Source of the DNA: a virus
Length of the DNA: 64,000 nt
Reading direction: 5' to 3' (one strand)
Virus record (IMG/VR): IMGVR_UViG_3300042923_000307
Coordinates: 1 to 64,000 of that record
Made by a program: the position numbers and the translations under genes
In this document: positions 2,897-38,856 of the stretch, one piece after another
Numbering within the stretch: position 1 is the first letter of the stretch
Layout: every line of letters starts with the position of its first letter
Notes under the pieces: generated by a model
Told to the model about the DNA's origin: nothing
Databases searched by the model: none
Seen by the model: only the letters and a program-made list of their open reading frames with translations

Positions 2897-3613
2897 ATGA
2901 CTAACACTGCACAAAAGATTGCCGAGTACAACGGAACTCAATTCCCTTTCCCAGCTGGTACTACTGCCCCAGTAATGCTTAACACCTTGAAAGCAATGTA
3001 CCCTGAATTGGAAACTGGTGGATACCGTGAAGAATCCGATAAGACTGTGTTCTTCGTTGTTGCTCAAAACAAATCTTTGGCTCAGAAAATCGCTGAGTAC
3101 AACGGAACTCAATTCCCTTTCCCAGAAGGTACTTCTGCCCCTGTTATGTTAAGTACTTTGAAAGCAATGTACCCTGAATTGGAAACTGGCGGCTACCGTG
3201 AAGAATCCGATAAGACTGTGTTCTTCGTAGTTGCACAAAACAAATCCATGGCTGCTGGCGACCAAAAGATTGCTGAGTACAATGGTACTCAATTTCCCTT
3301 CCCAGCTGGTACTTCTGCTCCTGTAATGTTAAACACTCTTAAAGCTATGTACCCTGAATTGGAAGCTGGCGGATACCGTGAAGAAGCAACTAAGACTGTA
3401 TTCTTCGTAGTAGCACAAAACAAATCATTCGCTGGTGGAGCTTCCATCATTGCTGAGTACAACGGTACTCAATTCCCCTTCCCTGCTGGAACTACTGCTC
3501 CAGTAATGCTGAATACTTTGAAAGCTATGTACCCTGAATTGGAAGCTGGCGGATACCGTGAAGAAGCAAATAAAACCGTGTTCTTCGTAGTAGCACAAAA
3601 CAAATCTAAATAA
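2897..3613 (+). CDS. four-repeat PRTRC_C (ubiquitin-like) protein, 238 aa
   Basis: The protein is four near-identical copies of one domain of about 54 residues, starting at residues 7, 64, 124 and 184, joined by linkers of 3-6 residues (LAQ, MAAGDQ, FAGGAS). Each copy matches PRTRC system protein C: YNGTQFPFP, then TLKAMYPEL, then KTVFFVVAQNKS. PRTRC cassettes on plasmids carry one copy next to B, A (JAB) and ThiF genes, as here. A beta-grasp, ubiquitin-like role is inferred from the JAB and E1-like partners. There is no terminal Gly-Gly; Gly pairs occur in the last linker. It has a strong GGAGGA site and mostly preferred codons, which suggests abundant expression. Confidence 0.88.
   Translation: MTNTAQKIAEYNGTQFPFPAGTTAPVMLNTLKAMYPELETGGYREESDKTVFFVVAQNKSLAQKIAEYNGTQFPFPEGTSAPVMLSTLKAMYPELETGGYREESDKTVFFVVAQNKSMAAGDQKIAEYNGTQFPFPAGTSAPVMLNTLKAMYPELEAGGYREEATKTVFFVVAQNKSFAGGASIIAEYNGTQFPFPAGTTAPVMLNTLKAMYPELEAGGYREEANKTVFFVVAQNKSK
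2915..3610 (+). repeat. four tandem PRTRC_C coding repeats
   Basis: The units begin at about 2915, 3086, 3266 and 3446 with spacings of 171, 180 and 180 bases. They are nearly identical as protein but differ at many third codon positions, so the copies are not a fresh duplication and have been kept alike at the protein level. Confidence 0.9.
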
Positions 3614-6889: not shown

Positions 6890-7794
6890 TGTCTAACGCA
6901 ACTACAACCGTGTCTCCATTTCCAAGCCTTCAACAACATATTCCAATCGTGCAGGATGGTATTAATATAATTCAAATTGGTATGGGTGGCACAGGCTGCC
7001 CTGTAGCCATGAACATACTTAAACTAATTGGTGGTATGGAAAAAGACCTACAGACTCGTATTCGTTATATTGGTATTGATGGCGACGTGTTTGAAGAAAA
7101 GAACTTGGGACGACAACTGTGTATCCGTCCTGATATGGGTAAAAATAAAGCACAAGTAATTGTAAGCAGATATGCTAATGCATTTGGTGTTAGCGATAAC
7201 TGCGCGTCTTACTCAGATGAATATATCAAAAGTCCAGCAGACGTTCTTAAGTATATGAATGTTGCTTACACAAATATTGTAATTGATAACCTGGACAAAA
7301 ATCGCCCTAGAGTATGGTTACATGAGGCTGTTAAACAATTCGTATCTAGCTACAAAATTGCGTATGTGTATGAGATTTCTACAGGTAATGGTGAGTGGTC
7401 AGGTCAAGTAGCTATGGGTTGTACACACAAAGTTAATAGTACAATTATCAGACACGAACCTGGTAGAACAGCTATGGATTCTCCATACTACTTCTCAATT
7501 CCTTCCCCATTTGTAGTTCATCCTTCTCTTCTGGATACGACAGTGGATGACCGTGAAGAAGCGCTAAGTTGTGCTGACAGAGCTGCTGCTAACGTACAAA
7601 CTCTAGTAGCTAACAATATGGCTGCTACACTATGCTTTAACTATGTAAATGCTATATTCGCACAATTCATAGCACAAGTTAATGGTAAAGACGATGTTCC
7701 TCAAACCATTGGGACTGTACGTTTTAATGCTAAGAACAATGGTTTTCAAACGGAGCAACTTACGGATACTTATCTCGCGAGGGAGGTACTATAA
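6889..7794 (+). CDS. ThiF/E1-like adenylyltransferase (PRTRC ThiF), 301 aa
   Basis: A Rossmann nucleotide-binding motif GMGGTG lies near residues 31-36, followed by the acidic RYIGIDGDVFEEKNLGRQ block (Asp, then Asn-x-x-Arg-Gln) and the KNKAQV lysine region, all typical of the ThiF/MoeB/E1 superfamily, which adenylates the C terminus of ubiquitin-like proteins. No MoeB-type CxxC zinc pairs are seen. It is one-base coupled to the JAMM gene before it and to the unknown gene after it, matching PRTRC cassettes in which ThiF, A, B and C cluster. Confidence 0.88.
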   Translation: MSNATTTVSPFPSLQQHIPIVQDGINIIQIGMGGTGCPVAMNILKLIGGMEKDLQTRIRYIGIDGDVFEEKNLGRQLCIRPDMGKNKAQVIVSRYANAFGVSDNCASYSDEYIKSPADVLKYMNVAYTNIVIDNLDKNRPRVWLHEAVKQFVSSYKIAYVYEISTGNGEWSGQVAMGCTHKVNSTIIRHEPGRTAMDSPYYFSIPSPFVVHPSLLDTTVDDREEALSCADRAAANVQTLVANNMAATLCFNYVNAIFAQFIAQVNGKDDVPQTIGTVRFNAKNNGFQTEQLTDTYLAREVL

Positions 7795-8465
7795 TGCTTA
7801 ATAATTCAGCACGTTCAAATCCAGGTTATAGTGGTATAGCCACAAATGGTGGTTACGCGTTAATAAGCTCTTACACTGGTTCTAATAATGGGAGAGAGAT
7901 GGGGCGTATGATTGCGCTCTCTCTCGGTGCTCCAGTACAGTTTCTTTCTAGCTCCAACAGGTTGAGCTCTCATACATTCGCAGCAATGTTGTATATGTAC
8001 GAAGTCGAGTACCTTGGTAGGGATGGGCAAGCTAGCGTATGGGGTCAGGAATATACGGACGTAGCACGTAGGGAGCGTGTTCCTAAGTACATGAATGACG
8101 ATGTATCAAGCACTGATGTACTATGCTTAGCTTTTAACGCACTACGTAGCAATGACTCTAATGAAGGGTACTTCATATTCAATAGACTTATACAGAAATT
8201 TACAAATATTAATGCTGATGAGTTTGGGGGGTACATGACGTATCTTATTAAGAACGACGGTGTAAGAGTACCAGCGTTTATTAGATTTCTAAAGGAATGT
8301 GACTCAGGTTCTTTAATCAAAGCTGTTATGGATGCTATAAATGAAGAAAAGACTAACTCTCGTATTAGAGCAGCTCTTACTAGACTTAGAGATAGTGAAG
8401 AGTTTGCCGCTGTTTCCCAGCAAGTTACGTCTAAGATTTTAGCAGCATCCCAAAATCATCAGTAG
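7794..8465 (+). CDS. hypothetical protein ending the PRTRC cassette, 223 aa
   Basis: The start overlaps the ThiF stop by one base (TAATG), so it is almost certainly co-translated with it. The protein is soluble and helical with no motif I recognise (VEYLGRDGQASVWGQEY, FIRFLKECDSGSLIKAVMDA). I see no E2-type catalytic cysteine context. Its tight coupling makes it a candidate extra component, perhaps standing in for other PRTRC proteins. It is followed by the noncoding palindrome region. Confidence 0.75.
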   Translation: MLNNSARSNPGYSGIATNGGYALISSYTGSNNGREMGRMIALSLGAPVQFLSSSNRLSSHTFAAMLYMYEVEYLGRDGQASVWGQEYTDVARRERVPKYMNDDVSSTDVLCLAFNALRSNDSNEGYFIFNRLIQKFTNINADEFGGYMTYLIKNDGVRVPAFIRFLKECDSGSLIKAVMDAINEEKTNSRIRAALTRLRDSEEFAAVSQQVTSKILAASQNHQ

Positions 8466-8473
8466 GTGTGTAT

Positions 8474-8794
8474 GGTTACACTTTTAGTACTCTTTCTACA
8501 CTGTTTCTACACTATAGTGTAGAAGAAATAGTTACACTGGTTGTGGCAGTTAATGCCTCATTCTACACTTCTACACTTTTTTAAAAAGGAGAACCCTATA
8601 TAGGGTATTCATTTATAGTTTCATATGCATAATATACCATATTAAAAACTACGGATAAAATGCCTCATATGTGACTATCGTTTTTAAAAAAGTGTATCTG
8701 TGTAGAAAGGGTATTAAAGTCCTTATACTAGTGCTATTATTTCTTCTACACTATAGTGTAGAAATGGTGTAGAAAGGTGTAGAAAAGTGTAACC
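8474..8794. repeat. 321-bp imperfect palindrome of TCTACAC iterons (candidate origin or partition site)
   Basis: The 475 bases from 8466 to 8940 hold no gene. Within them GGTTACAC at 8474 mirrors GTGTAACC ending at 8794. Two perfect 20-bp palindromes TTCTACACTATAGTGTAGAA lie at 8505-8524 and 8744-8763, and CACTTTTTTAAAAA (8574-8587) mirrors TTTTTAAAAAAGTG (8681-8694). All three pairs share the same centre at 8634, so the arms match without net insertions. Left-arm half-sites read CTACAC and right-arm ones GTGTAG. An inner CCCTATATAGGG palindrome is at 8594-8605. Such iterated operators suit a replication origin, partition site or master operator. Confidence 0.8.
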
Positions 8795-8940
8795 TTTAAA
8801 AATAGCCCAAATTGGATATGTTCCAGTTGGTTAACTATTTTTTTAATTTAGGCTTATTTTACACAATTTACAGATAACTTTGACAATTCATCAAAAAGCG
8901 TTACTGCTAATGTATAAAAATACAAAGGAGATGCATATTT

Positions 8941-9504
8941 ATGAATAGTACGTTAGTCGTACTAATTGGGCCTAGTGGTGTGGGTAAAACTACGTTAGAA
9001 AAAGCTGCTGTTGAGAAGGGTGTAGCAACGTATAGGGTACGTTCAGTCACAGACAGGTCTCCAGGTAAAGGTGAAACAGAGGCTGATTACCTATTCGTTA
9101 ATAAGGGCGAGTTTGACCCTGGTGCTTGTATAGAGCACATTGAGTACGCAGGTAACAATTATGGTATACTTAAAGAAGAATTAGGTACAGCACTTGCTAC
9201 TGATAGGCCAATACTGTGCGCTGATATTCATGGTGCTAGGCAGTTAAAGAGGTATACGAAAGGGGAAGGTGTCGTACTTTTAGTATTCGTAGACGCTTCT
9301 GACGAGCAGCTTAGAGCACGCTTAGAGGCAAGAGGCAGAGGTTCTGTAGAAGAACGCATGGCTCGTGTATCTGTGGACAGGGAAGCTATACCTGAGTGCA
9401 ACGTATGCATAACTAATAATGATGGTAATATTAACGAGTCACTAGAATCCCTAAGAAAAGTATATGAAATGGGGGAAGCGCTATGCCGACTAAAGAGGAC
9501 GTAG
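8941..9504 (+). CDS. gmk: guanylate kinase, 187 aa
   Basis: The P-loop GPSGVGKTT is at residues 10-18, followed by a YRVRSVTDR block and by ADYLFVNKGEF and EYAGNNYGI, which match the GMP-binding region of guanylate kinases (usual EYAGNYYGT). It converts GMP to GDP for nucleotide supply. The length is near the family norm of about 190-205. AAGGAGAT precedes the ATG. It is the first gene after the palindrome region and overlaps the RNase H gene by 22 bases. Confidence 0.88.
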   Translation: MNSTLVVLIGPSGVGKTTLEKAAVEKGVATYRVRSVTDRSPGKGETEADYLFVNKGEFDPGACIEHIEYAGNNYGILKEELGTALATDRPILCADIHGARQLKRYTKGEGVVLLVFVDASDEQLRARLEARGRGSVEERMARVSVDREAIPECNVCITNNDGNINESLESLRKVYEMGEALCRLKRT

Positions 9505-9938
9505 AAAGTTTCAGTACAACAGCGACAATGCTACCTACACATGATGCTTTAGGAAATCCGTTTGTACATATGGCTAGTGACGGTGCATGTACATCTAACG
9601 GTGATGGTGGTTGTGCGTGGTTCGATGGTACTAACTATCATAAGTTAAAATGCAAAGTAAAGTCTACTAATAATAAGGAAGAGTATAAAGGTTTAATACA
9701 TCTATTACAAACTCTTATAGCAAATAAATTTGATGGTCGTGCATTGATAATGATGGATAGCCAACTAGTTGTTAATCAAATGAATGGCAGCTACTCTGTT
9801 AAGAACGAGGGTTTAAAACCTTTATATGCTAAGGCTGCGTCATTAGCGTCCGTGTTGGACGTCGAGATAATCTGGGTTCCAAGAACACACCCTATAATGG
9901 GTAAAGTCGATAAATTAGCTAAGGAGGCTGCGAGATGA
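9483..9938 (+). CDS. ribonuclease HI-like protein, 151 aa
   Basis: The RNase H pattern is present: ASDGACTSNGDGGCAW with the first Asp, NNKEEYKGLIHLL with Glu, ALIMMDSQLVVNQM with the second Asp, and WVPRTHPIMGKVDKLAKEA with His and the last Asp. It should cleave RNA in RNA-DNA hybrids, for example replication primers. It starts inside the guanylate kinase end after GGGGGAAG. Close genes gmk and rnh suggest a nucleotide and replication operon. Confidence 0.88.
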   Translation: MPTKEDVESFSTTATMLPTHDALGNPFVHMASDGACTSNGDGGCAWFDGTNYHKLKCKVKSTNNKEEYKGLIHLLQTLIANKFDGRALIMMDSQLVVNQMNGSYSVKNEGLKPLYAKAASLASVLDVEIIWVPRTHPIMGKVDKLAKEAAR

Positions 9939-22015: not shown

Positions 22016-25000
22016 ATGTATCTTGATATGCACGAGAAGTGGGACGTTATCAAAAGACACGTAACAGATGGTATACGGTCACTATTCCCTATAGAAGTTC
22101 CAAAAGGTAGAGTAGAGCTTATAAGCGTTGAAATGAAAGAGCCTGAAAACCTCGTATCAAGTCAGCGTGAAGCTTTGATAAAGGGCGGTAGTTTAACCGC
22201 CTCTGTTTATGGTACGTTCAGGTTAACTGACGGTCACGGAGGTACAGTTGATACTGCTAAGATAAAAATACTTGATTTACCTCTGATAACACACCGAGGA
22301 ACATTCGTAGTTCAGGGTAAGGACTATAGTGTATTCAATCAGATGCGTTTGCGCCCAGGAGTTTACACTACGAAGTCAGAGGAATCTGGTGACGTAACAT
22401 CACGTTTCAACTTAGGTAAAGGTCTAGGTTTCAAAATAGAACTTAGCCCTAATGAGGGTATATTTTACGTACGTTTTGATAAGTCTAAAGCTAGTACAAG
22501 TAGCCCTAAGATTCCGTTGTATTCACTAGTTCGCGTATTAGGAGCCGCTGACTCAGACATTAAAGCTAGATGGGGAGAACGAATCTATAATGCTAACCAC
22601 GATAAGTCTCACATAATAGAAGACGCACGTAAAATAGTTGACTTAACAGTATACGGGGCTAAGCGTACAGGTAATGATGTTGAGGACATACGTAACTATT
22701 TCAATGATACACAGCTTAACGGCGATACAACTAAAGTAACGCTAGGTAGCTCTTACGACAGGGTACAGGCTGGCGCATTACTTGATGCTACGGCTAAGAT
22801 GGTACATGTTTATAGTGGCGCTGAACATGAAGACGATATGGATAGCTTGCTGTTCAAGGAAATCTTATCTGTTGAAGACCACCTTATGCTACGTATACAG
22901 AAAGGTATTAAAGACACAGGTGTACTTACTAAGATTAAACGTAAGATAGGTGAGGAAAAAGAGCTTCGTAAGATTATCCCTACGAATATGCTTACCAAAC
23001 TGATTGAAACGTTCTATACTACGTCGTCTCTTGCGTCACCACAAACAGAGATTAACCCTATCGAGATTCTGGAAACAAACCATAAGATTACCGCTATGGG
23101 TGAAGGTGGTATTAAGAGTGAGCACGGTATACCTATGTCTGCCCGTAACTTACATCCATCGCACTTTGGATTCTTAGACCCTGTTCGTACAACAGAGTCA
23201 ACTCGAGTTGGTGTCGACTTACGTACGACACATAACTCAGAGGTAAAAAACCGAAACATATACACCACTTTCATAGACCGTAAAGGTGCCAAAGTATCAC
23301 TAAGACCTATTGACTTGAGTGGCAAAACGATAGGGTTCCCTGGTCAAGAAGGTCATAAGATAGTAAGAGTCTTGCTTAACGGTGAAATGAAAGAGGTTCC
23401 AGCAGCGTCGGTAGACTATTGGATGGAGAAGTCCAAGGATATGTTTACGTACACCTCTAACCTAGTTCCATTTCTACACAACGACCAAGGTAACCGTGTA
23501 ACTATGGCTTCACGTATGGTTACGCAAGCAGTTCCTCTGGTACATAGAGAGGCCCCACTGGTTCAGGTTGAAGACGAGAGTGAGCACGGAACATTCCAGA
23601 AAAGATTAGGTACAGAGTTCTTCTCACCTAAAGCACCAGAAGATGGTACGGTTAACGAGATAGGTGAAGGCTTCATTCGTATAAATAATAGAAAAGTAGA
23701 CCTTTATCATAACTTCCCACTTAACGAAAAGACATACATTCACATGACACCTTTGTTTAAAGTAGGAGACAAAGTAAAGAAAGGACAAATAGTAGCTGAA
23801 TCCAACTTCACTAAAGACGGAACACTAGCTATTGGTACTAACCTCCGTACAGCTTACATAGGGTATAAAGGTTGGAATCATGAGGATGGTATGGTAATTA
23901 GTCAACACGCAGCTACTAAGTTAACATCTCAGCATATGTACGTTAAGGAAGTTGAGAAGAGTGACGACGTAACTGTAGACAAAAACCGTCTAATCAAGTT
24001 CTTCCCATCCAAGATAACAGCAGAACAAATGCGTAAACTGGATGATGAAGGTGTAGCTCAGAAGGGTCAGACAATACACAAGGGTGACTATGTAATCGCA
24101 GCTTTAGCTAAGCGTGACCTTACAAACTCTGACATGATGTTATCCAAACTACGCGGAGCATTAGCTAACCCCTATAAAGACGTATCGGAAGTTTGGGACC
24201 ATGATAGACCAGGGACTGTAACAGACGTTATACGTAATGGTAACTTAGTCAGAGTAATACTTACCACAGAAGATGAAACTCGTGTAGGTGATAAACTTAC
24301 AGGTGTTCACGGTAATAAAGGTACAGTAACACTTATACTACCTAACCACGAAATGCCTAAGGATAAAGACGGAAAACATATTGACATGCTATGGAATACA
24401 GCTGGGGTTATATCCCGTGTTAATCCTGGTCAGCTTTATGAAGCTATGGCAGGTAAGATTGCTGCTAAGACAGGTTCTCCTTATATTGTTAAAAATTTCT
24501 CCCCTGAGGATAGTAGTCGTAAAGTTATTAATGAGCTTAAAGCCCACGGTTTAAAACCAGAAGAGGACCTATACGACGCTAAAACAGGACGCCATTTAGG
24601 TGAGGTATTCGTCGGAAATCCACACGTTCTTAAGTTACATAAGCAAACAGAGGGTAACTTCGCTGCTCGTTTCACTAAGAACTACGACGTTAACTTGCAG
24701 CCTGCTAAAGGCGGTGAGGAAGGTTCTAAAGCTATAGGTCTACAAGATGTGTATGCTTTACTAGGACACAACGCTAGAGCAAACCTACACGAAATGGGAG
24801 CATACAAGTCTCAACGTAATGAGGAGTTCTGGGATTCGGTACGTATAGGGTTACCAATACCACCAGCAAAAGAACCGTTTGCGTTTGAGAAGTTTAAATC
24901 GTTAATTGGTGCTGCTGGTATCCACGTTAACAAAGGTAAAGACGCGTATACTATAGCTCCTATGAGCGACAAGCACATAGTACACCAATCTGCTGGTGAA

Positions 25001-26143
25001 ATAAAGTCTAGCGCTTTATTAGCTAGTAGCATGAACTCTGTAAAAGTTGAACCAGGTGGTCTATTCGATGAGTCTGTAACAGGTGGTTTAAAAGGTAAAA
25101 ATTGGGCTCATATGGAACTATCTGAGCACATTATAAACCCACTATTTGGTAACGTAGTAAAGACTATGCTTGGTGGTACAGACCCTTATGAAATGAAACC
25201 ATCAGATGTAAAGGCACAACTAGCTAAAATAGATGTTGATAAACGTATAGCTGAAATTCGCTCAGCTCTTGGTAGTACTAAAGGTAGTCCTCGAGATAAA
25301 CTACTTAAAGAGCTACGGTACTTAATGGCAGCTAAGAAACTAGGTATGCACCCAAAAGACTACGTACTGTCTAAGTTCCCAATACTACCACCACAATTCA
25401 GACCTGTTTACCCATCACAGTCAGGCGGTGTGCCGATGGTATCCGATATTAACTATCTATACCGTGATATGATGAACGTAAACAATGAATTGTCTAAACT
25501 TAAAGACTTCCCAGAGACTGACCCTACAAAGCTTAAGCTACGTAAAGACTTACAGCAGGCCGCAGGTGCTATCGTAGGCGTAATGAAACCTGTTAATAAG
25601 AAGAGCGAGAAGCAAGACCTTCAAGGTGTTGTACCACTCTTAACAGGAGGTAAACTTGATGGAGGCGGTACTTCAAAAGAGAGCTTCTTCCACCGTAAGT
25701 TAATGAAGCGTAACCAGGATTTAACAGGTCGTGGTACGATTCTACCAGACCCTAGTTTGCACGTTGACTACGCTAAGATACCTATAGACATGGCGCACCA
25801 GTTATTCAAACCATTCGTAATTAATAACTTGGTTAAAAAGGGCCTAACACCTATCCAGGCAGCTAAAGACGTAGCCGACAGAACACACATAGCATCTAGG
25901 GCGTTAGAGGAAGAGATGGAACGCAGACCAATACTATTAAACCGTGCCCCAACTCTTCACAAGTACAACATGATGGCATTTAAACCTGTAGCCGTAGAAG
26001 GCAAGTCTATATTCATACCACCTCTAATTATCAAAGGGTTCAACGCCGACTTTGATGGTGATAGTGTCGCAGGTGATACGTACGTTATTGTACAAGACAC
26101 TGACGGAACAGTACGCTTGGTGAAAATAAAAGACGTTGAATAG
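22016..26143 (+). CDS. RNA polymerase beta-beta' fusion, N-terminal part, ending in N-intein, 1375 aa
   Basis: One polypeptide covers beta and the first part of beta'. Beta blocks include VVQGKDYSVFNQMRLRPGVY, GYKGWNHEDGMVISQ near residue 620, and RVGDKLTGVHGNKGTV near 760. Beta' blocks begin near residue 1030 (WAHMELSEHI), then LPPQFRPVYPSQSGG, LNRAPTLHKYNMMAFKP, and the Mg-binding NADFDGD at 1343-1349. There the extein stops: the last 26 residues are an N-intein. Beta-beta' fusion is known in some bacteria, and phages carry divergent multisubunit polymerases, but alone this chain lacks the trigger loop and bridge helix. The start follows AAGGAGC, two genes after the portal. Confidence 0.95.
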   Translation: MYLDMHEKWDVIKRHVTDGIRSLFPIEVPKGRVELISVEMKEPENLVSSQREALIKGGSLTASVYGTFRLTDGHGGTVDTAKIKILDLPLITHRGTFVVQGKDYSVFNQMRLRPGVYTTKSEESGDVTSRFNLGKGLGFKIELSPNEGIFYVRFDKSKASTSSPKIPLYSLVRVLGAADSDIKARWGERIYNANHDKSHIIEDARKIVDLTVYGAKRTGNDVEDIRNYFNDTQLNGDTTKVTLGSSYDRVQAGALLDATAKMVHVYSGAEHEDDMDSLLFKEILSVEDHLMLRIQKGIKDTGVLTKIKRKIGEEKELRKIIPTNMLTKLIETFYTTSSLASPQTEINPIEILETNHKITAMGEGGIKSEHGIPMSARNLHPSHFGFLDPVRTTESTRVGVDLRTTHNSEVKNRNIYTTFIDRKGAKVSLRPIDLSGKTIGFPGQEGHKIVRVLLNGEMKEVPAASVDYWMEKSKDMFTYTSNLVPFLHNDQGNRVTMASRMVTQAVPLVHREAPLVQVEDESEHGTFQKRLGTEFFSPKAPEDGTVNEIGEGFIRINNRKVDLYHNFPLNEKTYIHMTPLFKVGDKVKKGQIVAESNFTKDGTLAIGTNLRTAYIGYKGWNHEDGMVISQHAATKLTSQHMYVKEVEKSDDVTVDKNRLIKFFPSKITAEQMRKLDDEGVAQKGQTIHKGDYVIAALAKRDLTNSDMMLSKLRGALANPYKDVSEVWDHDRPGTVTDVIRNGNLVRVILTTEDETRVGDKLTGVHGNKGTVTLILPNHEMPKDKDGKHIDMLWNTAGVISRVNPGQLYEAMAGKIAAKTGSPYIVKNFSPEDSSRKVINELKAHGLKPEEDLYDAKTGRHLGEVFVGNPHVLKLHKQTEGNFAARFTKNYDVNLQPAKGGEEGSKAIGLQDVYALLGHNARANLHEMGAYKSQRNEEFWDSVRIGLPIPPAKEPFAFEKFKSLIGAAGIHVNKGKDAYTIAPMSDKHIVHQSAGEIKSSALLASSMNSVKVEPGGLFDESVTGGLKGKNWAHMELSEHIINPLFGNVVKTMLGGTDPYEMKPSDVKAQLAKIDVDKRIAEIRSALGSTKGSPRDKLLKELRYLMAAKKLGMHPKDYVLSKFPILPPQFRPVYPSQSGGVPMVSDINYLYRDMMNVNNELSKLKDFPETDPTKLKLRKDLQQAAGAIVGVMKPVNKKSEKQDLQGVVPLLTGGKLDGGGTSKESFFHRKLMKRNQDLTGRGTILPDPSLHVDYAKIPIDMAHQLFKPFVINNLVKKGLTPIQAAKDVADRTHIASRALEEEMERRPILLNRAPTLHKYNMMAFKPVAVEGKSIFIPPLIIKGFNADFDGDSVAGDTYVIVQDTDGTVRLVKIKDVE
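26063..26143 (+). other. N-intein fragment of a split intein (26 residues)
   Basis: Directly after NADFDGD, the sequence SVAGDTYVIVQDTDG matches intein block A, with Ser as first nucleophile and the GDT core. It ends 26 residues later at a TAG followed by a terminator, so the short piece is by design rather than a cloning or reading error. Joined with the 230-residue C part at 1132-1821 it gives a complete intein with blocks A, B, F and G. Confidence 0.88.
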
Positions 26144-32748: not shown

Positions 32749-33537
32749 ATGGGAGAGGCAATAGTAGTAACGAGTGGTAAAGGCGGGGTGGGTAAAACTA
32801 CAACAACCGCAAACCTCGGTGTAGCCCTGGCAGCAATGAATAAAAGGGTCGCACTGGTAGACACAGACATCGGGTTACGCAATTTGGACATAGTTCTTGG
32901 GTTAGAGAACAGAATAGTATTTGACCTAGTAAACGTTGCGCGACAGGAATGCGACGTACGTACTGCATTAATTAAGGACAAGCGTTACCCTAATCTACAG
33001 TTGTTGGCGGCAAGCCAGTCTAGAGACAAAGAAGATGTAAAACCCTACGATGTGCAGTTAGTCATTCAGGAACTGGTTAAAGACTTCGACTATGTACTTG
33101 TGGACTGCCCCGCTGGAGTTGATAGGGGATTCCGTAATGCTACCGCAGGTGTTACATCGGCGTTAGTTATAACTACCCCTGAGATACCATCAGTGCGCGA
33201 CGCTGATAGGGCGATAGCTATGCTTGAGGACTTACATATAAAGCCTAGAATTATTGTAAATAAGATAAGACCTAGTATGGTTAAGTCTGGTGATATGTTA
33301 GAACTAAATGGTATAATGGATATATTGATGGCAGAGCTTATAGGATTGATACCTGACGATGATGCTATTATAGCGTCTACTAATAAAATGGCCCCAAGTG
33401 TAGCTCGTGTACCTGGCTCAAACGCAGCTGTAGCGTATAGAAACATAGCTAGAAGAGTTACAGGGGAACAAGTACCCTTTATGGAAATTAAGCCTCTTCC
33501 ACTCTTCGAACGTCTTAGACGGGCGGTCAGTGGTTAA
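32749..33537 (+). CDS. minD: MinD septum-site ATPase, 262 aa
   Basis: The deviant Walker A GKGGVGKTTTTANLG lies at residues 10-24, followed by VALVDTDIGLRNLDIVLGLE, which is the MinD rather than ParA signature, then YVLVDCPAGVDRGF and TTPEIPSVRDADR. The last residues (PLFERLRRAVSG) can form the amphipathic membrane-targeting helix of MinD. The length is the family's normal 260-270. With the MinC-like protein it could build a membrane-bound division inhibitor, or the pair may position phage structures. AGGAGG precedes the ATG. Confidence 0.93.
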   Translation: MGEAIVVTSGKGGVGKTTTTANLGVALAAMNKRVALVDTDIGLRNLDIVLGLENRIVFDLVNVARQECDVRTALIKDKRYPNLQLLAASQSRDKEDVKPYDVQLVIQELVKDFDYVLVDCPAGVDRGFRNATAGVTSALVITTPEIPSVRDADRAIAMLEDLHIKPRIIVNKIRPSMVKSGDMLELNGIMDILMAELIGLIPDDDAIIASTNKMAPSVARVPGSNAAVAYRNIARRVTGEQVPFMEIKPLPLFERLRRAVSG

Positions 33538-34558: not shown

Positions 34559-35155
34559 ATGCTTTGTATTAACCTAACCAGTATCAGAGACAACAAGCCT
34601 ATAATACTAAATAATAAGCTGGCGGCCCACAGATTATACTTAGGCAGCAGTGACGTACCTAGTTTCCCGAATAGACTAGTTTTTAGCGTCACAGCAGATG
34701 AATTAGCACGACTATCTGCACAACTACAAGAACTTGAGGTAGACTGGGTAACAGAGGAACTAGCAGCACTGGAAAGAGTACCAGTGTTTTTGGTTATTCC
34801 CTTTGCACTACGAGTTCAAGAAGAGGCGTTTACTAGCTTCCGTGAGAGGTCTTCAGCGGTGACAGAATCACAGCTAAACCTAAACCTAGGCCAACCTTCA
34901 ATATTTATAAGGGGCTCACAATTCCCCATAATATGCACAGCGTGCGAACGGCAAGAGGAGTTAAAAGGTAGAAGATGCCCAGATTATGTAGAGGATAATT
35001 ATGGGTGCTTCAAGACATCGAGGTTCGCGCTAGACGCTATGGACACATTCTACTTAACAGAGAAAGGGGAGCTAGTTTATAATGCTACATCAATCAGTGC
35101 ACCACCAGAACAACAAGTGGAAAGTGACGCAAGTACCGCAACCATCGTCGCCTAA
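34559..35155 (+). CDS. hypothetical protein, 198 aa
   Basis: AAAGGAGGA precedes the ATG. The protein is soluble with helices (ADELARLSAQLQELEVDW) and a Cys-containing part (ICTACERQEELKGRRCPDY, GCFKTSRFALDAMDTFYLT) that could bind metal. It overlaps the RT gene by 74 bases, so the two are tightly linked. Not recognised. Confidence 0.72.
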   Translation: MLCINLTSIRDNKPIILNNKLAAHRLYLGSSDVPSFPNRLVFSVTADELARLSAQLQELEVDWVTEELAALERVPVFLVIPFALRVQEEAFTSFRERSSAVTESQLNLNLGQPSIFIRGSQFPIICTACERQEELKGRRCPDYVEDNYGCFKTSRFALDAMDTFYLTEKGELVYNATSISAPPEQQVESDASTATIVA

Positions 35156-36296
35156 TCATGACCTACCCGTACTATTAGACGAGTATAACCTATGCAACCT
35201 ATTGGGGTACAATGGTAAGTATCCTTGGTACGTAGTGCACAATGCGGCAGAGTGCTACCAAACATTCTGGATAGACAAAGATACAAAATGCGTAGTAAGC
35301 GAGTACAATGAGGACCTTAACTTACGAGAAATATCAGCCCCTAATGGTTCATTAAAAACACTGCAAGGAAGACTAGCGGGTCTTGTGCTAAGTAAGCTTC
35401 CTAAGCACGATTGTAACTACGCCTATATGTCAGGAAGAAATGTACGTCAGGCCGCTGATACTCAGGTAGACGGTGATGTATTAATTCGTATAGACCTAAA
35501 GGATTTCTTTACACATCACTACGAACCTTATGTTCGTGCTAAACTTCATGAGCTTACTGGGTATAGTAAAGAGATGTGCTGGTTTATTACTAAGTTATGC
35601 TCACTCAGAGGCAGCCTACCACAAGGCGCTGTTACGTCTCCTGTTCTGTCTGTTGTTCTAAATTACGATATGGATGTTAGAATATCTGATATTGCAGCAG
35701 CACACAATTTAGTGTATACTAGATATGCGGACGATTTATGCTTTAGTGGTTCCGATAGAAACGATGCGCACCTTCACTCTTTTATCAACGAAGTATCACA
35801 TGCAGTACACCCGTTCCGTGTAAACTGGAAGAAAGTTGATATTATGCGGAATAGTGCTAGAAGCTTCGTTTGCGGTATTGAAGTACGCGGAGTTACCCCT
35901 GAAATGGAGTTTAACCTTATTGAGGAAAATGGTTTTAAGGTTAAACGCACAGCATCAAAACTTATGTACACTACATCTAAGCCAGTTGCGGATGATGTGA
36001 TAACTTCCATATCTAACAGTATATTAAGCACCAATGCTAATGTAACAGTACGACCCAAGAGGTTTTATATGCAGAGTATTAAGCGTATGCTTGGTATGCA
36101 TTTAACTGACGGTATAAACTACCCTCGTGATAAGTATAAGAAGATGCGTGTAGAGGCAATGTTAGTATCCAAAGGAGCAACAAACGTAAATGTTGCACGG
36201 TTTAAAGGTCGGCTAGCATTTATGCGACTAGTAGACCCTGATAAGGCAAATAAGATTGATGAAATAATTAATAAACACAGGAGGGTGGCCCAATGA
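35082..36296 (+). CDS. retron-type reverse transcriptase, 404 aa
   Basis: RT motifs are in order: RNVRQAADTQVDGD, VLIRIDLKDFF (first Asp), GSLPQGAVTSPVLS near residue 178, the catalytic RYADDLCFSG (YADD at 215-218), then a region-Y-like NSARSFVCGIEVRG. The LPQG motif and the short length without a maturase domain favour retron-like RTs over diversity-generating ones, which have an SQ motif. Start ATG 35082 follows AAAGGGGAGC inside the preceding gene. A giant structured RNA lies 540 bases downstream. Which RNA it copies is unknown. Confidence 0.88.
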   Translation: MLHQSVHHQNNKWKVTQVPQPSSPNHDLPVLLDEYNLCNLLGYNGKYPWYVVHNAAECYQTFWIDKDTKCVVSEYNEDLNLREISAPNGSLKTLQGRLAGLVLSKLPKHDCNYAYMSGRNVRQAADTQVDGDVLIRIDLKDFFTHHYEPYVRAKLHELTGYSKEMCWFITKLCSLRGSLPQGAVTSPVLSVVLNYDMDVRISDIAAAHNLVYTRYADDLCFSGSDRNDAHLHSFINEVSHAVHPFRVNWKKVDIMRNSARSFVCGIEVRGVTPEMEFNLIEENGFKVKRTASKLMYTTSKPVADDVITSISNSILSTNANVTVRPKRFYMQSIKRMLGMHLTDGINYPRDKYKKMRVEAMLVSKGATNVNVARFKGRLAFMRLVDPDKANKIDEIINKHRRVAQ

Positions 36297-36799
36297 GTGT
36301 AGTTCAACTTGACCCAACGTTATTCGCTGATACAATACTCGAACTAATAGACGACCCACGATATGATAAGGTATTAGTGACTGGTATTAGTGGCGTGGAC
36401 AAAATGGCAATATATGCTACGATACTGGAGTCTTTAGACGGTACAGGTCTTCGTTACGGATATATGATTAACGAGAACATTGTTATTATGAGCGCTGACG
36501 ATATTAAGGATTACTTAGAGGAGTTAACAACAACTCTAATTGAGGACCAAGGATTAGAAGGCGAAGAGTCTGTAGCTTACAATCCTGATGCTGAGGCTAC
36601 GCTTAGTTACTACTACGAAGGTTATGGTGACCCATTCGGAACTGTGGAGGACGAGAGTGAGGCGTTTAACAATGCAGGAGGTGCTGACGATGATACTCAC
36701 ACTATCCTATCAGACTTCCTACAGTCGGCGCTAGAGGATAGTATTATCGTTATAACTGGGGGCTACAGGGAAATCAGCGCAAACTGCGTAATGTTATAA
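36293..36799 (+). CDS. acidic hypothetical protein downstream of RT, 168 aa
   Basis: Its ATG overlaps the RT stop (ATGA) after GGAGGG, so it is co-translated with RT. The protein is very acidic (DYLEELTTTLIEDQGLEGEE, YEGYGDPFGTVEDESEAF) with an N-terminal block KVLVTGISGVDKMA. No family recognised. Retron operons often carry an effector gene, so this is a candidate partner; that is inference. Confidence 0.72.
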   Translation: MSVVQLDPTLFADTILELIDDPRYDKVLVTGISGVDKMAIYATILESLDGTGLRYGYMINENIVIMSADDIKDYLEELTTTLIEDQGLEGEESVAYNPDAEATLSYYYEGYGDPFGTVEDESEAFNNAGGADDDTHTILSDFLQSALEDSIIVITGGYREISANCVML

Positions 36800-36802
36800 A
36801 TT

Positions 36803-36842
36803 CAAAAATAGGCCCTTGTTGTTGGTATAAGTATATTGTAGA
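36803..36842 (+). promoter_or_regulatory. class A promoter of the giant RNA
   Basis: CAAAAATAGGCC, 8 bases, TGGTATAAG (36823-36831), TATATTGTAGA. It is one of the best matches to the consensus and reads into a gene-free stretch of about 1.27 kb. Confidence 0.82.
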
Positions 36843-38115
36843 GGAGTTTAACACTCTACTCGCATATCTAGGCAGGTTATGACGGGGACTTCTTCGTCTA
36901 ATAATTCTCTCCTATCGGAGCTCCAGATGACGTCGTCATCGGGAAGCCTTCAGTGCACGCGTCTGCAGCTGCGGCCGCCCCGCGAGCACGGCACATGTCT
37001 AGCTTGATATGCAGGAAACGGAATCGTAGTAAACTTGTTGGAGATTTCTTCAACGCTACGTTGTAGCGACTTAGTCACGTAAGTCCGCATCCATAACTGG
37101 GTTGTCTTCCAGACGCTTCCCAGTTCTGAGCGTCGTACTTACTTAGACAAATCGCTGCTAGCTCAACCGCAGCGCCTTGATGGCACTGCTCACGAGACAA
37201 GTGGACTTCCGTTTCCACTCTAATTAGGTTATAAGCAGCACACGTTGGCGATGATTTCATCGCAACCTCAGCAATGAGGCTGCCGTTCACGTGAACCGAA
37301 CAATCCGCGATGCTCCGCACGCGTATCCGTTCTCGTCACGTACACACCGCCCTCACCTGGTCCCCAGGATGAGATGGAATGTAGTCGAGTGCTTAACCTA
37401 GTTGAAATCATCTGGTGTAGAGTTCTACACTAACGACCACTGGTCGTTGCATGACCTGATGAGCTCAGGAGAGACTCATCTCGAGCATGCCGTCGGGCCC
37501 TTGAGCCCGCAGGCGCTAGTAAGAACTTGGTAAGCAAAGTTCCCGTAGTTCCGTATTAAGAACAAGATGGCGGTGACTTCACTGCTACCCATTTATTGGG
37601 CCGTAGAGGGAGGCCCTACTAATTGTCTGCTGGTCCTGGAGGAGTAATAACGGTGTCAATAACTGCAGTGTTAATGGTATTGAATTATCTGATTTCCCAA
37701 AACACTGAAAACATCTCTTCAGGTCTCCAGCTCTCAAGCCCAGCTTGAGAACCAGAGACGAGTTAAATGCGGAACGGTACAAGCCCGATACAGAGAGCAC
37801 CTAAGATAGTATACAATGACGATGATTTCGTCGTCCATATTTATTTCCCCTAGGTATTATTTCTGCACTTCGTTCGAATTAATACCCTGAGGATTACGAG
37901 TTCCATAGTCAAGTATCTTAGGTGCTTAAAGTGTCAAAGAGAGAAAAAGGGGAGAAGCACAGAACACATTGGCGATGATTTCATCGCTTAAAATATATTA
38001 CCAGCGGGCCATACACAGATGTGACTTCGTCAACATCCGTTACTGGACCTGCGGTATGACATCCGCCGCAGCTGCGCCTGCGAGCAGTGATGAGTGTTCT
38101 TCTCTCCTTTTTTTT
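36843..38115 (+). ncRNA. candidate giant structured noncoding RNA, about 1.27 kb
   Basis: The stretch has no credible gene, is visibly richer in G+C than its surroundings, begins at a class A promoter and ends in a helix plus eight T. It is packed with hairpins: 37054-37068, 37096-37124 (two nested stems), 37153-37174, 37248-37263, 37266-37279 (CCTCA, GCAA tetraloop, TGAGG), 37356-37368, 37415-37430, 37432-37448, 37570-37585, 37723-37759 and 38018-38037. Long-range helices include 37796-37808 with 37914-37926 (13 perfect pairs) and 37952-37967 with 38094-38104. The design recalls ornate large phage RNAs such as GOLLD and ROOL, but I cannot match it to any of them. Confidence 0.8.
38094..38115 (+). 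terminator. end of the giant RNA
   Basis: GTGTTC (38094-38099) and TTCTC (38100-38104) pair back to GAACAC (37962-37967) and GAGAA (37952-37956), and eight T follow. The terminator stem therefore also closes the last RNA domain. Confidence 0.65.
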
Positions 38116-38138
38116 AATTTTAGCGAGGAGGGATAAGT

Positions 38139-38231
38139 ATGTTAAGATTCTTAATTTTATGCGCAACAGTTTATACTTTGATAAGCATAACAGGAAGCAT
38201 ATGGTGGATTTTATTATTTATACTGTTGTAG
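38139..38231 (+). CDS. membrane peptide, 30 aa
   Basis: GCGAGGAGGG precedes ATG 38139. The product is almost wholly hydrophobic (FLILCATVYTLISITGSIWW). Too short for family search by eye; the strong ribosome site and position before the phosphoesterase support translation. Confidence 0.6.
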   Translation: MLRFLILCATVYTLISITGSIWWILLFILL

Positions 38232-38241
38232 GAGGTTAATC

Positions 38242-38856
38242 ATGAAATGGTGGGCATCAACAGACTGGCACAGAGACCATGCTAATATAGTACTACCTAC
38301 GTTTGAAGGAAGACCTGAAAACCACTCAGAGTTGCTGCTAGAGAGACACAACGAATTAATGAGTGACGAAGATGGGCTACTATGCCTAGGTGACGTAATA
38401 TTTGGCATGCAGAAGAATAACCTACATGAGTACCTAAATCAGTTCAGGTGTAGGTTAAAAGTATTAGTTAGAGGAAATCACGATAAGAAGCCTACTAAGT
38501 GGTACTTAGACCAAGGTTTTGATATGGTGTGTGACCAAATAGTTTTAAAAGGCATCCTATTCTCACACCACCCAGCCATGCTTGGTAGTGACCACGTACT
38601 TAACGTACACGGGCATGAGCATAGAGGTCTTCATCGTGACGACGAAAAGTTCTGGTTTCCTAGAACAGAAAGACACATACTACTATCCGCTGAGTATGCC
38701 GACTATTATCCTGTCTCCATAGGAGACCTGAAGAATGGTCGATACACGGTGGGTGGTAAGGTTTATTTTAAAAAGGGGTGTTCAAATGGATATGAAGCAC
38801 GTGATAGACACCTTGCCGAGGAAAGTAGCACTAATGGTAACGGTGGGCAGTCATAA
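38242..38856 (+). CDS. calcineurin-like metallophosphoesterase, 204 aa
   Basis: The metal-binding motifs are complete: STDWHRDH (DxH) at the start, CLGDVIF (GD), VRGNHDKKP (GNHD), LFSHHPA and NVHGHEHRG (GHxH). Such small phage and bacterial enzymes hydrolyse phosphodiesters or phosphomonoesters; the substrate cannot be told. TAGGAGG precedes the ATG. It overlaps the nucleotidyltransferase gene by 71 bases. Confidence 0.9.
   Translation: MKWWASTDWHRDHANIVLPTFEGRPENHSELLLERHNELMSDEDGLLCLGDVIFGMQKNNLHEYLNQFRCRLKVLVRGNHDKKPTKWYLDQGFDMVCDQIVLKGILFSHHPAMLGSDHVLNVHGHEHRGLHRDDEKFWFPRTERHILLSAEYADYYPVSIGDLKNGRYTVGGKVYFKKGCSNGYEARDRHLAEESSTNGNGGQS

Follow-up and report, generated by a model that had tools for sequence, protein, structure and literature searches.

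A 321-bp iteron palindrome in a phage genome fragment as a candidate copy of a proposed dispersed, multi-copy replication origin of large RNA polymerase-encoding phages

In the window, that is, the whole stretch of 64,000 nucleotides analysed here (positions 1–64,000 of the 69,662-base IMG/VR virus record IMGVR_UViG_3300042923_000307), an intergenic palindrome carries mirror-image arrays of a short iterated motif (iteron) around an A/T-rich centre. The palindrome is real, and so is a class of multi-copy elements in related phages. Judging from sequence features, we lean somewhat beyond an even balance towards reading the palindrome as a member of a class of iteron-type replication origins that large phages encoding an RNA polymerase (RNAP) carry in several dispersed copies; replication probably starts at this site, and its iterons would be bound by one protein.

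The palindrome is one gapless inverted repeat centred at position 8634 and spanning positions 8474 to 8794 (321 bp), in which 105 of 160 mirror pairs match. Scored as +1 for each matching and −1 for each mismatching mirror pair, this centre reaches 50, compared to 14 for the runner-up place in the 69.7-kb record, a maximum of 14 in ten whole-genome first-order Markov shuffles, and a maximum of 16 in 500 local shuffles, which bears out an earlier note on this sequence as to the imperfect palindrome and its centre. The same note had described three separate sequence pairs; pairing is, however, continuous along the arms, with 22 of 30 positions paired at 8474–8503, 27 of 28 at 8504–8531, 15 of 30 at 8532–8561, 24 of 28 at 8562–8589 and 17 of 44 at 8590–8633 (49 of the outermost 58 positions of the arm are paired), so that the element is a single diverged inverted repeat and not three isolated pairs. 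The 20-mer TTCTACACTATAGTGTAGAA, for which the note had proposed a search, occurs exactly twice, at the two palindrome sites 8505–8524 and 8744–8763, with no further site in the 69.7-kb record when up to 3 mismatches are allowed and no occurrence in any other IMG/VR contig searched. Ten of the 14 copies of the iteron TTCTACAC in the window lie inside the palindrome, where 3.5 copies would be expected for the entire window. The + strand of the element folds as RNA with −176 kcal/mol (z = −14.8), and the single-stranded DNA fold has z = −16.5, as is expected of any such palindrome; among the mismatches, G·U is favoured over A·C (7 vs. 2). The element occupies most of a 475-bp intergenic gap, and its parts and flanks are as follows.

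8474..8794, unstranded: whole element, imperfect palindrome with iterons, centre 8634, in the intergenic gap 8466–8940
8474..8609, + strand: left arm (inverted-repeat search), 74% complementary to the right arm
8659..8794, − strand: right arm (inverted-repeat search)
8474..8481, + strand: outer GGTTACAC, with its partner GTGTAACC at 8787–8794
8494..8501, + strand: iteron TTCTACAC (motif search)
8505..8524, unstranded: 20-bp perfect palindrome made of two opposed iterons
8518..8567, unstranded: opposed iteron pair of the left arm, starts 43 bp apart
8561..8576, + strand: tandem iteron pair, 8-bp repeat, at the inner edge of the left arm
8571..8651, unstranded: putative unwinding region in the A/T-rich core, with the lowest stability of any 80-bp window in the element, centre 8611
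8700..8707, − strand: iteron (motif search)
8701..8750, unstranded: opposed iteron pair of the right arm, starts 43 bp apart
8744..8763, unstranded: 20-bp perfect palindrome made of two opposed iterons
8767..8774, − strand: iteron (motif search)
8777..8784, − strand: iteron without a left-arm counterpart (motif search and mirror pairing)
7794..8465, + strand: upstream flanking gene, 223 aa, without a family match
8941..9504, + strand: downstream flanking gene, guanylate-kinase-like
9483–9938: RNase H gene, after the guanylate-kinase-like gene

The palindrome type of this element is GTGTAGAA. For the 223-aa upstream gene, both the family search and the search for relatives were empty.

No end repeat was found in the 69,662-base record, which is probably a fragment of the genome of a large phage that has a multi-subunit RNA polymerase of its own. 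The window encodes a portal protein, a fused beta/beta' RNAP subunit, a terminase large subunit (TerL), a MinD/ParA-family ATPase, a reverse transcriptase and a sigma factor, together with a PRTRC-like module (PRTRC protein A and a ThiF-family protein). The closest named phages are Salmonella phage Arash and Vibrio phages D69, D148 and D181, with RNA polymerases ~34–36% identical to that of the window phage; for Arash, the identities are 36% (RNAP), 28% (TerL) and 29% (portal). Further relatives were recovered from IMG/VR with ThiF, RNAP and primase profiles. IMG/VR searches with single window proteins (ThiF, the product of 7794–8465, TerL and guanylate kinase) gave no useful relatives, nor did a megablast search of the first 25 kb of the window against phages, and the RNAP profile had no match in GTDB genomes. 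The relatives that bear the element are Arash, D69 and about 15 IMG/VR contigs (designated below by G numbers), which have the RNAP, TerL and portal genes in common; genomes in this family, which encodes its own RNA polymerase, are ~138–187 kb in size.

Elements in the relatives were detected through being repeated or palindromic, with copies found by self-comparison of the records; within a genome, copies are recognised by sequence similarity, and the correspondence of elements across distant lineages rests on layout. The dispersed repeat is mostly intergenic (short ORFs overlap 11 of the 48 tabulated copies) and is present in 2–5 copies per full-length genome. We identified five copies each in Arash, G012, G013, G014, G015 and G018, and three each in D69, G006, G011 and G016; among fragments, G001 and G005 have two copies each and G017 has one. 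Two iteron palindromes of ~500 bp each are present in contig 3300041407_000207. In a second batch of contigs, fetched with the primase profile and used as a check, three copies that are 98–99% identical were identified in G021 (138 kb, with end repeats) and two copies in G019; G020 and G022 have one central copy each, with both contig ends inside element copies, as is expected when assembly breaks at repeats. Metagenome assemblies of other family members may also be fragmented at the element.

The copies are spread more evenly than expected for random placement. In Arash they lie at 26.7, 66.5, 100.2, 138.6 and 173.4 kb, and in D69 at 67.5, 125.3 and 185.4 kb. The gaps between the five copies in Arash are 34–40 kb, and the coefficient of variation (CV) of the gaps is 0.06–0.08 in Arash, G012, G014, G015 and G018 (P ≤ 0.0002 each vs. 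random placement), five genomes that share positions by descent and therefore together amount to about one observation. G013 has a gap CV of 0.20 (P = 0.003) and D69 one of 0.08 (P = 0.007); the support for evenness is weaker in G016 (P = 0.04), G006 (P = 0.05), G021 (P = 0.08–0.09), G019 (P = 0.09) and G011 (P = 0.10). Combining one value per arrangement gives P of about 7 × 10−8 for even spacing. This value is only approximate, since the arrangements have some positions in common and since completeness was assumed for G011, G013 and G019, in which no end repeats were seen. The flanking genes are co-directional in 28 cases, divergent in 12 and convergent in 5, which indicates that the element is not bound to one transcription arrangement. 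In nine of ten genomes, one copy and the primase gene are 2–9 kb apart. The window phage has one copy in its 69.7-kb fragment, and the next 61 kb rightwards lack another, which is compatible with the widest gaps in the relatives.

The arrangement that the earlier note had proposed, with binding sites in mirror halves, in register, around an A/T-rich centre, recurs in ~17 related phage records with other iterons, most lineages having one of their own. The iterons are TTGTAACC in Arash and G015, TTGGTACG in G012, TGATACG in G018, ATGTGTCG in G013, TGTCACA in G014, TGTAGCA in D69 and G011, TGTCTA in G001, G016 and G017, TGTCCAG in G005 and G006, and TGTAGAA in the window phage. An opposed iteron pair 39–48 bp apart is present in all 14 records measured (43 bp in both arms of the window element), and many records have a same-direction pair 8–9 bp apart, with an 8-bp tandem in the window. 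Clusters of three or more iterons are located at the elements and almost nowhere else. The enrichment of iterons at elements is partly a matter of construction, because the motifs were selected, lineage by lineage, from within the elements, but neither the near-absence of clusters elsewhere nor the common spacing is a product of that choice. In the first measured set, every relative's copy ranks among the least stable 0.05% of 80-bp windows. For 16 of 18 records, the stability minimum of the whole genome lies within an element; the core of the window element is less extreme (least stable 0.23% of the 80-bp windows of its record). An easily melted region flanked by iterated sites is present in the elements and is weaker in the window copy.

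Copies within one genome are 78–100% alike over their aligned parts, whereas almost nothing aligns between the copies of Arash and those of G012, despite 85% identity of TerL and mostly corresponding neighbours. We infer from this combination of likeness within genomes and turnover between them that the elements evolve in concert and that the factor binding them changes. At E 1e-3, blastn gave no hit between the window element and the elements of other lineages; several clear multi-copy lineages also lack such similarity to one another, and cross-lineage similarity was therefore not taken as defining. The window element, which is intergenic and has its iterons mirrored about an A/T-rich centre, matches the layout of the Arash/D69 type, and it likely belongs to that class on the grounds of layout and phage kinship, not of sequence similarity.

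Several other features of the window phage were recorded. The motif GGTATAAGTATATTGTAGA (up to 3 mismatches) has nine + strand sites, at 1897, 2690, 26192, 26439, 33586, 34296, 36824, 45956 and 54541 (0.08 expected), which are probably promoters, perhaps of the phage's own RNA polymerase; the 3' end of this motif resembles the iteron. The RNAP beta/beta' fusion (22016–26143) stops at 1375 aa, ~150 aa short of its Arash homologue, and the remaining beta' portion was not found within the 69.7-kb fragment. The MinD homologue (32749–33537) matches TIGR01968 with E 6e-101, above the NCBIfam cut-off. A protein encoded at 2897–3613, upstream of the PRTRC A and ThiF (E1-like) genes, consists of four tandem repeats of ~57–60 aa and looks like a concatenated precursor of a small modifier. 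In the region 35082–38730, a reverse transcriptase gene and a small ORF precede ~1.9 kb that has no clear genes, is of higher G+C and contains repeated short hairpins; the region has no Rfam match, and its non-coding stretch is possibly an RNA associated with the reverse transcriptase. Positions 37080–38000 are predicted to be strongly structured (fold z = −7.7) and include the GTGTAGA...TCTACAC hairpin at 37415–37430. The earlier note was right that this hairpin exists, but its proposed link to the palindrome is unsupported; the hairpin belongs to the structured stretch downstream of the reverse transcriptase gene and appears unrelated.

The reading as a replication origin draws on anatomy, since an easily melted core flanked by mirror-arranged iterated sites is the anatomy of iteron origins. 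On this reading, the mirror-image arrays would be bound by an initiator of the phage, which would open the unusually unstable A/T-rich centre and bring in the replisome there; with 2–5 copies spread along it, a long genome could replicate from several sites simultaneously. The earlier note had offered 'origin, partition site or master switch', which was the right set, with an origin as the best fit, but the 2–5 copies in complete relatives, spread more evenly than at random, were beyond its view. GC skew, which it had put forward as a check, lends no support to an origin: skew in the window largely tracks gene strand, and none of ten genomes showed a skew switch at its elements after correction for gene strand. 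Such a switch may be missing in multi-origin or recombination-driven replicons. The initiator might, speculatively, be the family's primase-helicase, as the conserved primase combines a TOPRIM primase part with a part that resembles phage primase/helicases, though profile searches of its C-terminal part against solved structures and Pfam yielded nothing beyond weak matches. A search for the initiator through divergence among Arash proteins was not decisive, several fast-changing proteins carrying P22_AR_N domains. Several P22_AR_N (antirepressor-type) proteins are found among Arash L008–L010; one of them, located at 67.0 kb, and a weak match, located at 138.7 kb, are close to element copies.

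If the origin reading is right, the element would work somewhat like the origins of T4 and the hrs of baculoviruses. In herpes simplex virus, a eukaryotic virus, oriL is a palindrome with an A/T-rich centre between binding sites; the phage elements likewise have an A/T-rich palindrome centre flanked by predicted sites, a likeness from which we claim no evolutionary link. Baculovirus hrs were first postulated to be origins from their symmetric location, A/T content and palindromes, are active in plasmid replication assays, and have also been discussed as enhancers (PMC6669502). The phage element is similarly A/T-rich, palindromic and dispersed in several copies, but whereas the palindromes of the hrs of these unrelated insect viruses are ~30 bp, the phage element is palindromic over its whole ~200–600 bp, and no relationship is claimed. 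T4 has at least five active origins (oriA, C, E, F and G) that share no local sequence motif, with an A/T-rich unwinding element in oriF and oriG and iterons in oriE (PMC3016281). In contrast, the copies within one of the present genomes are near-repeats of one mirror-symmetric element, and no relationship to T4 is claimed either. The alpha protein of phage P4 is described as primase, helicase and origin-recognition protein in one (Ziegelin 1993, as cited in PMC8628076). An alpha-like role is possible for the family's primase, which resembles alpha in its combination of parts, with P4-style origin binding only putative given the weak domain matches. To our knowledge, P4 does not bear spread copies of its origin.

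The elements could instead be centromeres, partition sites or DNA-organising sites, with a phage DNA-binding protein nucleating on the arrays to segregate, anchor, compact or topologically divide the genome. Even spacing would suit anchoring or domain boundaries, the window phage encodes the MinD/ParA-family ATPase mentioned above, and PRTRC genes, which are known from plasmids, are widespread across the phage family; we nevertheless consider such a role unlikely, because centromeres need no extreme melting region whereas the element cores are the least stable DNA in most genomes, because no ParB-like protein was identified, and because G003, which has a PRTRC ThiF but none of the family's RNAP, TerL and portal hits, showed no dispersed repeat. 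A linkage of the element to the PRTRC genes was rejected, elements being at several places and G003 having the ThiF without the repeat, so that the proximity of the two in the window is probably incidental. A role as a transcriptional switch or enhancer, in which the elements would be operator arrays for a phage regulator of nearby operons, comparable to baculovirus hr enhancers or to the stoperators of mycobacteriophages, seems to us rather improbable. Mirror-image operators in intergenic regions would agree with it, and dual roles are possible, as discussed for baculovirus hrs (PMC6669502), but flanking-gene orientation varies, the copies are spread out and not placed one per operon, iteron clusters are almost absent elsewhere, and the promoter-like repeats of the window are a different motif, with all nine sites on the + strand.

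Two further explanations concern the repeat as RNA and as a mobile sequence. Transcribed with the 3' region of the upstream operon, the element could form a long hairpin and act as a terminator, RNase III site or regulatory RNA, and both the stable + strand fold and the excess of G·U over A·C mismatches point this way; however, folding is a property of any long palindrome, copies adjoin genes of either strand, and Rfam has no match in the window. In Arash, moreover, the left-arm partner of the right-arm GTCTTGAGGTG has changed in 3 of the 5 copies with the TTGTAAC sites kept, which favours DNA-binding sites over an RNA hairpin, and we give the RNA explanation only a minimal probability. A mobile or selfish non-coding repeat (a MITE or fold-back element) multiplied in these genomes would account for short, non-coding, multi-copy inverted repeats, but is hardly more probable, given spacing more even than random, positions conserved despite sequence turnover, the A/T-rich core, and a window copy in which no target-site duplication was seen by eye.

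Under the origin reading, this lineage of large phages would replicate from 2–5 near-identical, spread origins. Within each genome the copies would be homogenised, and copies and initiator would be replaced together over time; this would be a phage form of the multi-origin chromosome, a proposition that we hold to be evenly balanced. The papers searched contained no account of Arash or of elements like these, although one may still exist. For phages, a single origin is usually described or, in the case of T4, several that are unlike one another. An evenly spaced, homogenised element would offer a natural system for asking why and how genomes space their origins and how initiators and their sites co-evolve, and the origin question can be tested directly in named carriers such as Salmonella phage Arash and Vibrio phage D69. 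Should the elements organise DNA rather than start replication, the result would be equally informative.
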